Below are positions 55-38,937 of a DNA stretch of 38,937 nt, piece by piece. Position numbers and translations under genes: made by a program. The stretch comes from Bacteroidia bacterium (lineage in GTDB: Bacteria > Bacteroidota > Bacteroidia > SpSt-205): contig JANWXY010000034.1 of assembly GCA_025057135.1 (NCBI GenBank), positions 1 to 38,937 of the forward strand, read 5' to 3'. The stretch's first letter is position 1. Every line of letters starts with the position of its first letter. A model generated the notes under the pieces. The model was not told where the DNA came from. It did no database searches and was given only the letters and a program-made list of their open reading frames with translations.

Positions 55-3000
55 CTACGGCAACCAAACAAGCTTTTGCTGACGCAAAATATGTCCATTT
101 TCCCCCATCCAGCAGGCGATATACGTCCCAGCAGCCAAAGGAGGAGCGGAGGTCGCATACTCACCTGGGTCAAAGTGCCCTTGTATTTCCCATACCACCT
201 TCCCTTCCAGACTGAGAATGCGCAAAGCCTGAAAAGGCTGTGCAGAACTGAAATTCAGCGTAGCACTGACAGGTGAGGCTATCCAAAATCTGTTCTCCGG
301 CATCTCCATCTCATACTCCTCTCTGTAAGCAAGGGGAGGCGGAGCTCCAGCGGCATATCCTGAGAAGGAAGTGAAAGTACCTCTAATCCACTGCCCCGTA
401 GAACCGTAGTTCCCCACAGCCCGAACAGGACTAAGCTGATAGGTAGGGGAAGCCGCCGAGTACTCACTGGTTATTGTGCCCGCAGTTTTGACAACGTATG
501 GAGCGGTATTCCAGCTCATGCCTGTGGTAGTTTGATAGCCCCCGACTTCTGCATTCGTATAGTACAGCGTGATTGCATAAGAGGGCGTCCCTGCGGTCGT
601 CGGAGTAACAACAAACGTCTTATCAGTCACATACTGCGGAGCAGTATGCGAAGGACGAAGTGCCTGAGCATTAGTTCCTGTACGATCCACTTGGACCTGC
701 GTACAGCCATGATTGATGGTGCTGAGATTGACAAGGCACATCATAAGGTCGCCATCGGCGCTGCTGTAAGCATACAACGAGTCCCCAGGACCGAAATATA
801 CTGCCGTGGAGGCTGTGGAACTTTCAATATTTGGTGTCTTGCGGGCATACAGAACGATATTATCTATGGCAAGGGGGGGCTGAACGCCATTAGCATCATT
901 GTCGTTGTCCCAGCGCCACGCCAGCCAGAGATTAGACTGATTCCAAGTCGCACTGGGGAGTGGAACGACAATGCGTCTGACCGAGTTAGGGTAGCCGTAA
1001 AGGCTATAACTACGTGACATGCTCAGTAAGGCACAGGTATTAGCGCTCCATCCACAACCTATGACGGGTTGGAAGCCACTCGTTGAAGAAGTGGTAGAAT
1101 AGAACAGTCGCCCGAAATCTTGCAAGTTGGCGCTCCCATACTCACCTCCGACCATTACATCAAATGCAAGCACGAGGTTAGTCGCTCCGATAGTATTTAT
1201 TGCTGGGGAGACGGTGGCTGTTCTACTCGTAGAGTTTAGAGCATATTGATGGGGCGGCGGCGTGCCGCTTGTATTATTCGTAATATACATAGAAAAGCCA
1301 GAGCCCATCGCAGCGCCCGTTCCACGCACCCACTGGTTCGTGCCAGCCGTTACATTAACCGTAGTAAACCCCGTAGGCGTCGTCTCAAAATCCTGCTGAT
1401 ATAGAATCACCTCTGGTGGGAAAAAGTCATTGTCTTCTATCCACAGGCGGTGAATGCGCCGGTGAGCTACTACACTGGCTGGGCCACTAGTTACATTCAG
1501 TTGGAGCTCTATGTATCGCCATGGCTCAATCGCCTGGTCATCAAAAATGCGCACAACCGCATTTTGGGGCGAGGTAGCTCCTGCTGCAAAGCTGAGCGTC
1601 GGAGTGAGAATAGCAAAATCTACACCGTTGCGCGCAGTACTGGTAGAAGCTGCACTCACAGCTACTGTTACATTAGACGAAGGAGCAGCGGATATCTGCA
1701 CAGGAATCTGGACATCGCGATAGCGGCGACAATCTCCTGTCAACAAAGGCCAAGTAAGCTCTTCACGCACGACTTGACCTGTGTCTCGCCAAAAGACCAT
1801 CGGCTGATGCGTAATGCGTACATTGTCTATCCAGATGCAGTTTCCATATTGATTGATGGTAACGAAACGCAAGCGTATGCGCTGACCCACGTAAGTGCTT
1901 AGATTAATAGTACGCGCTTGCCATTCGCTCGCCGCAGATGGAATAAAGCGAGCCGTAGTATTAGTCCCAGTAGCCAAAGTAGCTCCTGCCTGCTGAAATA
2001 TCGGAGTGGCTGCCCATGTAGTACCACAGTTCGTGGCAACTTCCACTCTCAGTTCATCATTACTTGTATTGTTATATCGGCGATAAGCGACGTCAAAGCT
2101 CAGCTCTACCCCAGCTGGTGCGCTGGTCAGGTCTATAATCGGTGTATAAAGCTCATCACGGCGACCAGTCTGAGAGTACGCCCAGCAGTTTACATGCATA
2201 GCAATAGTACGCTGCCCATTACTACCTGTACAGTGAGCTGGACGCCATGTGTAACAGTCATTATTAGGGTCTATCACTCGCCACAGATGAGGGGGGATAG
2301 GCTGTCCTTCCCACCCGTGTTCAAAGGTTTCAAATAGCGGATAAAATCCATTATGAACCACTATCCGAGCACTGACGGTGTCTTCTGTACGATCTGGATC
2401 GCTGGTGAGATTAGAGCATGCTGTGAAAAGGTACTCTCCGGGAAGGGAAAAGTTTATGCCCGTCAAAGCAAATGTAGTCGTAGCTCCCCCTCCCAAAGTA
2501 CCTGTCCATGTTTGAGTTTGCCAAGGACCAGTATTCAGCCTATGAGCAACTGGAATGGTACTAAGAGAGTTTGTGCCGTTATTCCGAAGCGTAGCATTAA
2601 ACGCATATGTTCCCGGACAGATGTCCTGTGGAATGGAAAGGTCTATGAGAGCAGCATCAGTTGGAGATGGTGGCACGAGAGCGGGTGAAGTGATGAGGCT
2701 CCTTCGTCGCGGGCAATATTCTAAAACAACACGCATTCGCAGGACTTGATCCAAAGTGAAGATATTCATGCAACCATCATCAGAATACTCCATGTAGTTT
2801 TCTATCATACGAGGGACACCTGACACACATGAAGGAGGATTAGGAGAACATCCATAATGTGCATCAGCGCAATCAGGCGTATCGTCACAAAAATCATCTG
2901 GGGTGCAGTCCCCAGCGGTTGCGTTATCTCCCCACGTATGTCGCAAGCCCAGCCAGTGTCCAACCTCATGTGTAGCCGTACGCCCCATGTGATATGGTGA

Positions 3001-3729
3001 GTTCAGCCCTGTGGAGCCTTTGAGGGCAGACCCAAAAACTGTATACCGCATTACGACCCCATCAGTATTCGCAGTACCAGTACAAAGCCCCATGCCCATA
3101 TCCCCTGGCATCCCCAGCAAGCTAGACGCGTCGGGAAACTGCGCATAGCCTAATAGTCCCCCGGCTAAATCTGCCACCCATATATTTAGGTATTGATTAG
3201 GGTCCCACTGAGTGGCAGGTTTTATAGTTCCCTCCATGTAAGTTTTATTATAGGGAGGAGGAGCCCATCCATGGGTATTTCTATCCCAACGCACAATTCC
3301 GTTGGTGGGGTTTCCCATAGGGTCCCGTTTGGCTAAAACGAACTCTATCCGTGCATCAGCACCTCTGGGGTGATTATTCCAGCCTGGTGTGCCGCTCAGT
3401 CGGCGAAAGTCCTCGTTCAATACCTGAATCTGATGAAAAATATTCGCATCGGGAATATTCCTGCCCGTACCCACCGCCTCTCCATCGTGTATAACATGAA
3501 CTACCACAGGGATTTTATACACTCCGCCGATAGTTCGGGCCTGCGATAATAAGGCTTTTTTCTGGAGGACTTTTTCTTTTAGGATAGGCTCATAGTCATC
3601 TAAGCGTGGCCAATCAGGATGTAATGCCCTCAATAGGCTATCGGCTTGCATGGTACCACAACGCACCCAGTGTCCCCGCTGGGCATACAAGACAGCGAGT
3701 AGCGCGCCAAGAAAAGTATTTCTCCACAT
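55..3729 (-). CDS. Secreted M43-type zinc metalloprotease with T9SS C-terminal domain
   Basis: Predicted secreted protease of 1,224 residues. The start at 3729 is preferred over the upstream Met at 3753 because it begins a compact signal peptide (MWRNTFLGALLAVLYA, cut before Gln) and a promoter box lies just upstream. The zinc motif HEVGHWLGLRH (about residues 254-264) has the HExxHxxGxxH form of metzincins, and the Met-turn NYMEY (about 311-315) fits the pappalysin-like M43 family. After the catalytic domain come a CARDB-like Ig segment, a MAM/choice-of-anchor-like jelly roll, a Calx-beta-like stretch and a second jelly roll with the motif QPPLAIDNI. The last ~70 residues resemble a T9SS type A sorting domain, so the protein is probably exported by T9SS and anchored or released at the surface. 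The substrate is unknown. Its 5' end was copied in the neighbouring tandem duplication. Confidence 0.88.
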   Translation of the reverse strand: MWRNTFLGALLAVLYAQRGHWVRCGTMQADSLLRALHPDWPRLDDYEPILKEKVLQKKALLSQARTIGGVYKIPVVVHVIHDGEAVGTGRNIPDANIFHQIQVLNEDFRRLSGTPGWNNHPRGADARIEFVLAKRDPMGNPTNGIVRWDRNTHGWAPPPYNKTYMEGTIKPATQWDPNQYLNIWVADLAGGLLGYAQFPDASSLLGMPGDMGMGLCTGTANTDGVVMRYTVFGSALKGSTGLNSPYHMGRTATHEVGHWLGLRHTWGDNATAGDCTPDDFCDDTPDCADAHYGCSPNPPSCVSGVPRMIENYMEYSDDGCMNIFTLDQVLRMRVVLEYCPRRRSLITSPALVPPSPTDAALIDLSIPQDICPGTYAFNATLRNNGTNSLSTIPVAHRLNTGPWQTQTWTGTLGGGATTTFALTGINFSLPGEYLFTACSNLTSDPDRTEDTVSARIVVHNGFYPLFETFEHGWEGQPIPPHLWRVIDPNNDCYTWRPAHCTGSNGQRTIAMHVNCWAYSQTGRRDELYTPIIDLTSAPAGVELSFDVAYRRYNNTSNDELRVEVATNCGTTWAATPIFQQAGATLATGTNTTARFIPSAASEWQARTINLSTYVGQRIRLRFVTINQYGNCIWIDNVRITHQPMVFWRDTGQVVREELTWPLLTGDCRRYRDVQIPVQISAAPSSNVTVAVSAASTSTARNGVDFAILTPTLSFAAGATSPQNAVVRIFDDQAIEPWRYIELQLNVTSGPASVVAHRRIHRLWIEDNDFFPPEVILYQQDFETTPTGFTTVNVTAGTNQWVRGTGAAMGSGFSMYITNNTSGTPPPHQYALNSTSRTATVSPAINTIGATNLVLAFDVMVGGEYGSANLQDFGRLFYSTTSSTSGFQPVIGCGWSANTCALLSMSRSYSLYGYPNSVRRIVVPLPSATWNQSNLWLAWRWDNDNDANGVQPPLAIDNIVLYARKTPNIESSTASTAVYFGPGDSLYAYSSADGDLMMCLVNLSTINHGCTQVQVDRTGTNAQALRPSHTAPQYVTDKTFVVTPTTAGTPSYAITLYYTNAEVGGYQTTTGMSWNTAPYVVKTAGTITSEYSAASPTYQLSPVRAVGNYGSTGQWIRGTFTSFSGYAAGAPPPLAYREEYEMEMPENRFWIASPVSATLNFSSAQPFQALRILSLEGKVVWEIQGHFDPGEYATSAPPLAAGTYIACWMGENGHILRQQKLVWLP

Positions 3730-3736
3730 AACATGA

Positions 3737-3744
3737 CAAATATA
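3737..3744 (-). promoter_or_regulatory. -7 promoter box of the metalloprotease
   Basis: On the minus strand the sequence is TATATTTG, an exact match to the Bacteroidota -7 consensus TAnnTTTG. It ends 7 nt before the chosen ATG at 3729, so the leader would be very short or absent. I could not identify a convincing -33 element. An identical copy sits at 5252-5259 in the duplicated segment. Confidence 0.6.
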
Positions 3745-3763
3745 CAATAACATCTACGCATCG

Positions 3764-20957: not shown

Positions 20958-21857
20958 TTATGACTGAGTACTGTTTTTCGGATTAGGAAGCATTTTCAAC
21001 CATCCAACCTCCTGAGGAGTAAGGTAACGCCACTGTCCACGTGGCACGCCTTTCCGATTAATAGGTCCAAATGCAATCCTATCCAAGGATTTCACCCTAT
21101 ATCCTAAATGCTCTAACATACGCCGCACGATGTGCTTGCGCCCTAAATGCACTGTGAGAAGTAGCGTGTATGGGTCCTCTAACTCGGCTGCATCAGCCTG
21201 AGCTACACCATCAGATAAGGGTATGCCCTCCAGTAGGCGACGAAGGATTTTTTCATTCATCGGCTTGACAGTAGTCACTCGGTATGTGCGTGGTACCTTA
21301 GTGCTTGGATGCAGGAGCTTCTGGGCGAGACTCCCATCATTCGTCAGCAGAAGGATACCTGTGGTATTTCTATCTAAACGTCCGATGGGATAAAGCCTCA
21401 CTGGCGGCGCCCCTTCTAAGAGGCTCATAACCGTTTGGCGTCCTTTTTCATCTCGGAGCGTGCATATGGTGTTCTTAGGCTTATTGAGCAAAATATAAAC
21501 AGGCTTCTCAGGGCGAATGACATTTCCCCGATAGGTAACAACATCTCTTTTCGTATCCACATAGAGCCATGGCTCTTTTACGACTTGCTGATTGACGGTC
21601 ACTTGACCATTTAGAATGATATTCACAGCCTTACGGCGAGAAGCCACACCTGCAAGCGCAAGAAAACGGACGAGGCGAACCTTCTCCGGGAGAGACTCCT
21701 GAGGAGAAGTGGGTTTGGGACGAGGGGAGATGGGTTGTTTAGCTGAGCTCTTTTGAGAAGGGACGCGCATATTTGATTGACGACGCGACTCCTGCGATTG
21801 GGCTGAAGAAGCCTTGCGAGAAATAGGGCTCCATTTTTTCTCGGACTTATCTTTCAT
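20958..21857 (-). CDS. rluB: 23S rRNA pseudouridine synthase, RluB/RsuA family
   Basis: A 299-residue pseudouridine synthase that modifies uridine in large rRNA; RluB of E. coli acts on 23S U2605. A basic Ser/Pro/Lys-rich tail of about 55 residues precedes an S4 RNA-binding domain (about 60-105, VRLVRFLALAGVASRRKA). The catalytic domain has the GRLDRNTTG motif with catalytic Asp162. The N-terminal low-complexity extension is common in Bacteroidota versions and may bind rRNA. An RsuA-like specificity for 16S cannot be ruled out. It sits 29 nt after the small membrane protein and 3 nt before queF. Confidence 0.92.
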   Translation of the reverse strand: MKDKSEKKWSPISRKASSAQSQESRRQSNMRVPSQKSSAKQPISPRPKPTSPQESLPEKVRLVRFLALAGVASRRKAVNIILNGQVTVNQQVVKEPWLYVDTKRDVVTYRGNVIRPEKPVYILLNKPKNTICTLRDEKGRQTVMSLLEGAPPVRLYPIGRLDRNTTGILLLTNDGSLAQKLLHPSTKVPRTYRVTTVKPMNEKILRRLLEGIPLSDGVAQADAAELEDPYTLLLTVHLGRKHIVRRMLEHLGYRVKSLDRIAFGPINRKGVPRGQWRYLTPQEVGWLKMLPNPKNSTQS

Positions 21858-36141: not shown

Positions 36142-37158
36142 TCACTGCGAAGAGGCAGGCACAAACTCCCCATCCTCTCGGATAGTAAGCCGCCCCCCTT
36201 GGAAATCCTCCTGAGTGAGTCGGCGAAGAAGCATCAAAGCCTCTTTTTTCTCGTCCGGTGTAGGAATACCCTGGAGGATGCGCATAGGGTGAAACTTGCC
36301 TCGGAGGAAGCGCCCTTCTTTATCTAAGCTTACTTCAAAAACCCCCGTCAGTCCATTCGGACCCTGAGTGCTAATCCCATTGACGACGATGAAATTCCCT
36401 AAGGAGTATAAAACAAGTCGCCCTTTGTATAACTCCATGCCGCGCATCACATGCGGACCGTGTCCCACCACGAGGTCTGCTCCAGCATCAATCACCGCCC
36501 GAGCGAATGCTCTTACATGCCCACGATTTTCTCCATAAAACATCTCCACATTATCAGGGGTATGAATCATATTTGAGCCCTCCGCGCCTCCATGGAATGA
36601 CACAATCACCACATCCGATTTTCGCGCCAAATCTTGCACAAGCGATACAGCCTGAGGGATATTCCCTACATGATAGGACCGTCCAGAAAACCCAAATGCA
36701 ATAAGACCCACCCGAAGCCCATTTATCTCTAATACTTTGCTTTCACGCTTACCCAAGGTCGTGATCCCCATGTTCTCTATGAGACGCTTCGTGGACTCAT
36801 AAGCGGCGACGCCGTAGTCTTCCGTATGATTATTATCCAGATGAGCTAAGTTGAAGCCAACTTCCTTGAGAAGGTCTGCATTCTGGACCGGCATACCGAA
36901 CTCAAAGCAGACCCCGCGCTGACGAGAAGCTTCGGAGCATTTGCAGGGCTTCTCTTTACCTGTGACAAAGTTTCCCTCCACATTCGTGAAGCGAATATCA
37001 CCGACACTGAGATAGGGGCGCAGCGCTAATACTCGCTGGCGCAGGTGCTCAGGTAGGACAAAAGTACCTATCATATTATCTCCTGAAAGCGTCAGGTGGA
37101 GGGCAGCTTCCTGCGCTAATAGCCAACCTCCGACCACCACTACCCACAGCTTATACAT
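36142..37158 (-). CDS. CapA-like metallophosphatase, exported
   Basis: A 338-residue exported protein of the PGA_cap / CapA metallophosphatase family, some of which take part in poly-gamma-glutamate capsule assembly. The metal-binding blocks are visible: LSGDNMIG near residue 28, NVEGN, NNHTEDYG, SFHGGAE and VGHGPHV(M)RG near 235-243, followed by LYSLGNFIV. A signal peptide ends GGWLLA before Gln. The start is 37158, not the upstream ATG at 37170, because the latter lies inside the promoter box. Poly-glutamate synthases are not nearby, so the substrate is open. Confidence 0.85.
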   Translation of the reverse strand: MYKLWVVVVGGWLLAQEAALHLTLSGDNMIGTFVLPEHLRQRVLALRPYLSVGDIRFTNVEGNFVTGKEKPCKCSEASRQRGVCFEFGMPVQNADLLKEVGFNLAHLDNNHTEDYGVAAYESTKRLIENMGITTLGKRESKVLEINGLRVGLIAFGFSGRSYHVGNIPQAVSLVQDLARKSDVVIVSFHGGAEGSNMIHTPDNVEMFYGENRGHVRAFARAVIDAGADLVVGHGPHVMRGMELYKGRLVLYSLGNFIVVNGISTQGPNGLTGVFEVSLDKEGRFLRGKFHPMRILQGIPTPDEKKEALMLLRRLTQEDFQGGRLTIREDGEFVPASSQ

Positions 37159-37163
37159 GTTCG

Positions 37164-37171
37164 CAAACATA
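37164..37171 (-). promoter_or_regulatory. -7 box of the CapA-like gene, leaderless spacing
   Basis: Minus-strand TATGTTTG is an exact TAnnTTTG match and ends 5 nt before the ATG at 37158. An upstream in-frame ATG falls inside the box, which argues for the downstream start. Confidence 0.63.
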
Positions 37172-37283: not shown

Positions 37284-37640
37284 ATGCGCATTACAGTACG
37301 CCTTTTCTCAGGCTTGCTACTCGGCTGGGCACTGGCACAGAAATCCTCTCCTGTGCCAGCAGAAAAGTTAGTCCATTACGAAGCGGTCCTCCTCCTCCGA
37401 GATTACAAACCTGGTACAGACCCATCTCCTCACTGGGAACGCATTCAGAGGCTCATCCTATCTAAGGTCGGCTTTTATGATGCACAGCTGGTTGCTACAG
37501 AAGGGCAGCAGCTCAAGGTGCGCCTCAGCACAGACCCCGAGATGCCGCTCTCGGATATCTATGAAGTGCTGCGCGCTGCGGGTACAGAGACACGCAGCCT
37601 CTACCGCATAGAGTCGTCAAAAACCACTCAAACAAAGTAA
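37284..37640 (+). CDS. Small secreted protein, function unknown
   Basis: A 118-residue exported protein with a signal peptide ending GWALA before Gln. The mature ~95 residues have alternating strands and helices (YEAVLLLRDYK, then IQRLILSKVGFYDAQLV and LSDIYEVLRAAG) that recall a ferredoxin-like or heavy-metal-associated-type fold, but there is no CxxC. I do not recognise the family. Its stop is 3 nt before the next gene, so the two are probably one operon. Confidence 0.72.
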   Translation: MRITVRLFSGLLLGWALAQKSSPVPAEKLVHYEAVLLLRDYKPGTDPSPHWERIQRLILSKVGFYDAQLVATEGQQLKVRLSTDPEMPLSDIYEVLRAAGTETRSLYRIESSKTTQTK

Positions 37641-37643
37641 CTT

Positions 37644-38585
37644 ATGCGCACACTTTACATACTGGGCTTGCTTCTCTCGCTGGGCTGGGCACAGACCATC
37701 CTGGTAGATGGTACAAGTAATGCAGGATCGTTTGAGTCAGGCAACGCGTGTAATACAGGTACCTTCACCGCTGACGGCTGGACTATCGTCAACGGCACCC
37801 AAACCAATCGCTGGGCCGTCAATACTGGTGCCGGAGCCCATCATGGTAGTCGCGCTATTTACATTTCTACTTACAACTACACCTTCCCTGGCTGTGCCTA
37901 TAACATGCCACCTTCGCATCAGGATATAAACCTTCAGAGTGCGGGTTGTTGTGGAGGGGCTAACTTCTATGATAGTGGCGGCTCAGGAAGTAGTTATGGC
38001 AATAATGAGAATCGTACCATCACTTTCTATGCTCCGGCAGGTCAGCAAGTTTATGTAGTATTCACATCCTTCCACACCGAGGCAAACTATGATTACCTCT
38101 ACGCTTATGATGGACCTAATACTCTTTCACCGCTTATCGGCACTTATCATGGCACTACACTGCCTCCTACGATAAATAGCACGGGTAACTCGCTCACCTT
38201 TCGCTTTACTTCAGATGGCTTGATTACTTACTCAGGATGGAGTGCGATAGTATTCTGCGGTCCTCCTCCCACGGGCTGCATGGGCATACCACCCCACGAC
38301 TATAATACAGGAAGCTCATCGGTAGTGCACTTCTACCGTGATGTGACGCTGCCAGCGGGAGAGCCGTATATGACGATCTCGGCCTATGTGAAGGTGCAGG
38401 GGGAAGGCTGCTGCGACTATTTAGATATTTTCGTGGCCCCCACGAGTGTAACACCTATGGCGGGAACAGAAGTCGCTGCTACTCATCGGATAGGGCGTTA
38501 TAACATGGTAGGCTCAGGCTGGACTCAGATCAGTCGCACCTTCTGTGGCACACCTGGGCAGACCTATCGGGTGATTTTCTCCTGA
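37644..38585 (+). CDS. Surface protein with CUB-like domain, N-terminal part before an in-frame stop
   Basis: A 313-residue reading frame with a signal peptide ending SLGWA before Gln. It contains a CUB-like domain at about 75-205 (e.g. YDYLYAYDGPNTLSPLIGTYHG and SLTFRFTSDG), then a cysteine-bearing jelly-roll region. The frame ends at TGA (38583-38585), but the same frame continues open for 117 codons to the window end and carries recognisable homology. The stop is therefore probably a mutation, a sequencing error, or a site of readthrough. Homologues of this type are T9SS-exported adhesins or enzymes. The intact gene is longer than the window. Confidence 0.75.
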   Translation: MRTLYILGLLLSLGWAQTILVDGTSNAGSFESGNACNTGTFTADGWTIVNGTQTNRWAVNTGAGAHHGSRAIYISTYNYTFPGCAYNMPPSHQDINLQSAGCCGGANFYDSGGSGSSYGNNENRTITFYAPAGQQVYVVFTSFHTEANYDYLYAYDGPNTLSPLIGTYHGTTLPPTINSTGNSLTFRFTSDGLITYSGWSAIVFCGPPPTGCMGIPPHDYNTGSSSVVHFYRDVTLPAGEPYMTISAYVKVQGEGCCDYLDIFVAPTSVTPMAGTEVAATHRIGRYNMVGSGWTQISRTFCGTPGQTYRVIFS

Positions 38586-38937
38586 CGAAATGACGGCTCC
38601 TCGGGTACGCAGCCGCCAGCGGCGGTGGATAGGATTCATATCACGGCGAGCAGTACGCCGCCTCCTACCCCGTGGATAGTGAATGTGCCGGGCCTCCCCT
38701 ACACCCATGGTGCCGATAATACCTGCGGAAAGGGGAATAACCTCACCAGCTCTAATGTCTCTCCCACTTGCGGTAGTACCAATTACTATGGCGGCGAGGA
38801 TATGGTATGGGTCTTCACGCCTACCAGTAGCGGTCAAATTCTGATATCGCTTACTTCTTCTACCACATGGACAGGTTTGATGTTGTATCAAGGTGGAACT
38901 CTGGGCACTTGTGGAGGCCTTAGCGGGTCTACCTGCG
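38586..38937 (+). pseudogene. Downstream continuation of the surface protein, partial at the window end
   Basis: After the TGA the same frame reads RNDGSSGTQPPAAVDRI and on to the window edge without another stop (117 codons), with a second domain that resembles pre-peptidase C-terminal modules (GEDMVWVFTPTSSGQILIS). The motif before it, FS-stop-RNDG...QPPAAVDRI, matches the WRWDNDN...QPPLAIDNI stretch of the protease at the left edge, where the stop position is Trp. No start codon or promoter is visible here, so it is best read as the broken remainder of the gene at 37644. Confidence 0.72.

Follow-up and report, generated by a model that had tools for sequence, protein, structure and literature searches.

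The described systems closest to the locus considered here are (i) bacterial pseudogenes in which one nonsense mutation interrupts a surface-protein gene, (ii) the cargo proteins of the type IX secretion system of Bacteroidota, with their MAM-like, CUB and PPC-like domains, and (iii) the MAM domains, known from meprins, and the jelly rolls of CBM type. Like nonsense pseudogenes, the gene starting at position 37644 of the window, i.e., the whole stretch of 38,937 nucleotides that was analysed, exhibits one in-frame stop in an otherwise intact coding sequence with intact homologues, but it differs from them in being also cut by the end of its contig. As in type IX cargo, it encodes a signal peptide, a jelly roll and a CUB domain, and a sorting-type tail is present on the orthologue of genome G007 and 35 such tails are encoded in the window's own genome (G000); in the window copy, however, the C-terminal tail is not visible owing to the stop and the contig end. 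The likeness to MAM domains and CBM-type jelly rolls lies in Foldseek matches of the structure model of the window protein, from which the latter departs in that the similarity is weak over the whole length (TM about 0.2 by query) and in the CUB domain sitting in one of its loops. A literature search at the level of titles, directed at stops near contig ends or within type IX cargo genes, returned nothing on the present case. Surface genes that are broken or wrongly assembled are common, and the finding is as such ordinary in itself; the stop is considered here as probably a recent nonsense, i.e., loss-of-function, allele of a surface-protein gene.

The Open Frame Beyond the TGA

A preliminary description of this DNA, made from its letters and open reading frames, reported that the gene at 37644 stops at a TGA while its frame remains open and homologous further on. 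The stop indeed comes at codon 314, after 313 codons, and the same frame is open for another 117 codons, namely 38586-38936, which takes it to the window's final complete codon. The sequence quoted in that description, RNDGSSGTQPPAAVDRI, is found in frame downstream of the TGA, and the 117 residues are homologous to the orthologue of genome G006, with 80% identity over 116 residues (BLASTP 6e-71), so that the open frame after the TGA exceeds what would be expected by chance. Elsewhere, among the 32 main window genes, in-frame open runs of at least 117 codons after the stop occur twice, after 20958-21857 and after 37284-37640, and both are simply the next gene. The motif that had been offered for comparison, W-R-W-D-N-D-N-D-A-N-G-V-QPPLAIDNI, is carried as claimed by the protease at 55-3753. 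Throughout the 431 codons, the lesion amounts to one base only. The possibility that a separate gene begins downstream of the TGA was rejected, since the GTG at 38625 sits within the homologous frame; a scan for a consensus promoter of such a gene after the TGA found none.

The window is the whole of contig G000:C88, in a host genome of 2.08-Mb distributed over 94 contigs and 98.1% complete, and the contig ends 352 bases from the TGA. When the genome was searched at the DNA level with positions 38500-38937 for a continuation of the contig, only the window itself and one weak match (E 0.79) were returned. The 3' end of the gene was also sought on the G000 contigs starting or ending with a sorting tail (C5, C6, C15, and C52), where the repeats of the gene at 37644 were absent and no join was made.

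Architecture of the Surface Protein

The gene at 37644 would represent the 5' portion of a longer one, whose multi-domain product comprises a signal peptide, a jelly roll of MAM-like type into one loop of which a CUB domain is inserted, and PPC-like repeats (Table 1), and, by analogy with its relatives, the full gene would end in a type IX secretion C-terminal signal. The C-terminus of the G007 orthologue matches the type IX sorting domain at 26.7 bits, just below the cut-off of 27, the window gene itself being cut by the contig end. Together with the sorting-type tails of the host genome, 25 out of 35 of which score over the cut-off, this tail makes it probable that the intact gene specified a surface protein destined for secretion.

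Table 1. Features of the leader and surface-protein genes at the right end of the window.
Feature	Position	Strand	Evidence
Leader gene for a secreted-looking protein of 118 aa, immediately 5' of the surface gene	37284..37640	+	ORF; DNA identity to G003 and G009
5' part of surface-protein gene, 313 codons and stop	37644..38585	+	ORF; Pfam CUB 3.8e-13
MAM-like jelly roll, first half (residues 18-76)	37695..37871	+	Alignment to relatives; model strands
CUB-domain insert (residues 77-211)	37872..38276	+	Pfam CUB; alignment gap in relatives; GC3
MAM-like jelly roll, second half to stop (residues 212-313)	38277..38582	+	Alignment; model
Premature TGA (codon 314) within the strand predicted at 307-317	38583..38585	+	Trp/Tyr of relatives; model
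Remaining jelly roll including last strand (residues 326-336)	38586..38651	+	Alignment; model
First PPC-like (pre-peptidase C-terminal) repeat, cut by contig end	38664..38936	+	Sub-cutoff PPC match in the equivalent part of the orthologue from G007; 80% identity to G006

The CUB domain, which scores 50.2 bits against a Pfam cut-off of 21.4 and lies entirely upstream of the stop, is an insert unique to the window copy, as a gap faces it in all four relatives aligned across that point; its GC3 is 0.437 vs. 0.53-0.59 in the flanks. Tandem CUB arrays are present in G002:C25 and in others. No match to Pfam MAM was found for the gene at 37644, nor any NCBIfam match for the surface gene. In a structure model made of the read-through protein, the mean pLDDT is 62.5, with the CUB region and the repeats poorly modelled, but the jelly roll is well modelled (block pLDDT 73-91 for residues 21-80 and 74-95 for residues 221-340). 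Foldseek with this model retrieved the MAM structures of meprin alpha/beta and CBM22 structures, with E from 2e-5 to 1e-3. Since codon 314 lies inside one predicted strand and a further strand follows after the stop, the TGA is expected to break a domain rather than to fall between domains.

Codon 314 and Coding Constraint in Relatives

The position of codon 314, at which the preliminary description had supposed a lost tryptophan, is occupied by Trp in five of the six same-genus relatives examined, the sixth and divergent one (G004:C53) having Tyr. The carriers of Trp are the genes of G006, G010, and G007 together with two paralogues, in G006 and G010, and the domain runs without a stop in each of them; G006:C1:264480 and G011:C83, which also matched, were left out of this comparison. 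On a wider scale, the genome_contigs collection (84,980 species) was scanned and the best 80 of 262 relatives were kept, a set overlapping with the same-genus relatives, several of whose genes recur in it. Searching these best 80 of 262 loci with a profile gave 175 domain matches, none of which has an internal stop. After 34 matches had been dropped, those covering the codon and possessing the PP of the QPPAA motif were retained, i.e., 141 matches from 79 of the 80 loci, and TGG stands at the codon in 141/141. Homologues ending at the position of the TGA without the downstream domain, which had been named as a finding that would speak against a lost tryptophan, were absent among those examined. 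The window gene therefore has an in-frame stop where its homologues run on.

Coding constraint was compared either side of the TGA from pN and pS, by the Nei-Gojobori count, over residues 212-313 (before the stop) and 315-431 (after the stop); synonymous sites being near saturation, pS served only for its contrast with pN. Against G006, pN was 0.21 and pS 0.70 before the stop, and 0.15 and 0.63 after it; the corresponding values were 0.20 and 0.72, then 0.20 and 0.79, against G010, and 0.21 and 0.84, then 0.29 and 0.69, against G007. As such, no relaxation was observed after the stop, and constraint is about equally strong on both sides, which implies that the stop is either recent or not real. 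Relaxed constraint after the stop is expected only of an old pseudogene, and its absence is compatible with a young nonsense allele. Judging from these substitution patterns, the stretch past the TGA appears to have been under coding constraint until very recently.

An Apparently Variable Locus with Broken Relatives

The leader gene belongs to no Pfam or NCBIfam family. Over 37299-37715, which covers the leader and extends into the surface gene far enough to take in its signal-peptide DNA, the window shows 98.6% DNA identity to G003, and over 37299-37649 it shows 96.6% DNA identity to G009; as a background, one chromosomal gene of the window reaches 69% (G003) and 67% (G009) over the best-matching 0.4 kb. 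Identity to G003 falls into patches within the surface gene and, upstream of 37299-37715, the adjoining G003 sequence does not match the window. In G000, G002, G003, and G010 a contig end falls within the surface gene, and the G009 contig stops just short of it; the contigs of G006 and G007 extend across the whole gene. Taken together, these comparisons point to a surface-gene locus that is variable and recombining, and such a locus with contig breaks makes an assembly error at the TGA more likely.

The domain pair is present in a single copy in the genome, namely the gene at 37644, besides a relic on G000:C3. This relic, at L044:4447-4668, is short and corresponds to the N-terminal part of a surface protein belonging to this family. 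In the G006 orthologue (L036:3480-7745), the frame changes at a C8 tract, an opposite change follows about 0.7 kb on, and a long open frame comes next; this double frame change could reflect phase variation or decay. G006 is a single-contig assembly and, under its name KatS3mg025, may have been sequenced from PacBio HiFi data: the paper on the Katase hot spring (PMC9671151) describes HiFi sequencing, although the word KatS3mg does not occur in it. On G003:C124 (L039:6283-9013), a heavily frameshifted run of PPC-like repeats, distributed among all three frames and containing in-frame stops, is followed by a sorting-type tail, the N-terminal part being missing. Gene loss thus appears to recur in the family (G006, G003:C124, and G000:C3), and a real TGA becomes more likely on that account.

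Nature of the TGA

In the reading considered the most probable, a recent nonsense change in the sequenced population would have turned codon 314 into a stop. Translation would then halt in the middle of a beta strand, with the loss of the last strand of the jelly roll, of every repeat and of the sorting signal, and the truncated allele would most likely be non-functional. Among the three options left by the preliminary description, a real and recent nonsense mutation ranks first, an assembly or consensus error second, and readthrough a distant third.

That the TGA is an artefact, i.e., a wrong base or the base of a minority strain taken up close to where the contig breaks off within a variable gene shared across species, is unlikely, yet it is the alternative that weighs most against a nonsense allele. 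The lesion is a lone base with 352 bases of contig left beyond it, and contigs of several related genomes also end in this gene; an error of consensus or assembly fits these features well too. In addition, with 96.6-98.6% of the leader segment in common with other species, reads of several species could mix, and the lack of any further lesion, together with the unchanged constraint, also speaks for a miscalled base. Conversely, independent lesions affect genes of this family in the genus, including in the single-contig assembly of G006, and the rest of the 431 codons shows no sign of mis-calling.

If the stop is real, the 313-residue product could itself be a functional secreted protein, as the CUB domain, well over its Pfam cut-off, lies wholly before the stop. 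This is very improbable, given that the chain would break off within a strand and lack the last strand of the jelly roll, the repeats and the presumed sorting signal, and that none of the examined relatives ends at codon 314.

The remaining explanations depend on the reading of UGA, which is an ordinary stop in this genome; the preliminary description had reasoned in this direction from other genes ending in TGA, and 14 of the 32 window genes are so terminated. RF1 and RF2 are both encoded in the genome, and the RF2 gene is intact, with a Shine-Dalgarno-like AGGAGG and CTTTGAC, where the zero frame ends at a TGA and the +1 frame supplies the remainder of RF2; as in E. coli, this arrangement corresponds to the usual UGA frameshift site. 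By ARAGORN, 41/41 tRNA matches have ordinary anticodons, CCA being the only one for Trp, and no UGA-reading tRNA with a UCA anticodon is found among them in this 98.1% complete assembly. The search for tRNA-Sec gave 19 matches, none over the cut-off and all 19 at the places of ordinary tRNAs. A selenoprotein was accordingly rejected, with no tRNA-Sec above the cut-off and homologues exhibiting Trp (one Tyr) at the site, and so was a suppressor tRNA, as none of the 41 tRNA matches reads UGA.

Regulated or leaky readthrough of the UGA, giving some full-length protein, could be envisaged from the C that follows the stop, UGA-C being a leaky context in E. coli, and from the coding constraint persisting downstream. 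It is nonetheless even harder to credit than a functional truncation: no examined relative has UGA at the codon, which argues against a conserved readthrough site; the tRNA complement described above offers nothing that would decode it; no Rfam element was found within the window; and the recency of the stop alone accounts for the constraint. As for a general recoding of UGA to Trp, suggested by nothing more than the UGA occupying a Trp codon, it is practically discounted by the intact RF2 with its UGA frameshift site, by the missing UCA tRNA and by the 14 window genes ending in TGA. For an in-frame UGA that occupies a conserved Trp position of a fragmented genome, a check of RF2, of the tRNAs and of the read data should thus precede any proposal of recoding or readthrough.

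A Candidate Mosaic Cassette

Beyond the nonsense allele itself, the pairing of the leader with a mosaic surface gene is the more interesting part of the locus. As a speculative and rather doubtful scenario, the leader and the surface gene may form a cassette that species of this lineage swap with one another, homologous recombination taking place in the nearly identical DNA of the leader and signal peptide. The mosaic surface gene would then gain domains, such as the CUB insert, and be repeatedly switched off by stops or frameshifts, including the one at the C8 tract of G006, with populations keeping on and off alleles, of which the TGA would be one off allele. The near-identity of the leader across species, compared with a background of about 67-69% for one chromosomal gene, would make the exchange of surface proteins among these uncultured Bacteroidota testable. 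On the opposite strand, a protein of PGA_cap type (capsule synthesis), encoded at 36142-37170, adjoins the putative cassette.
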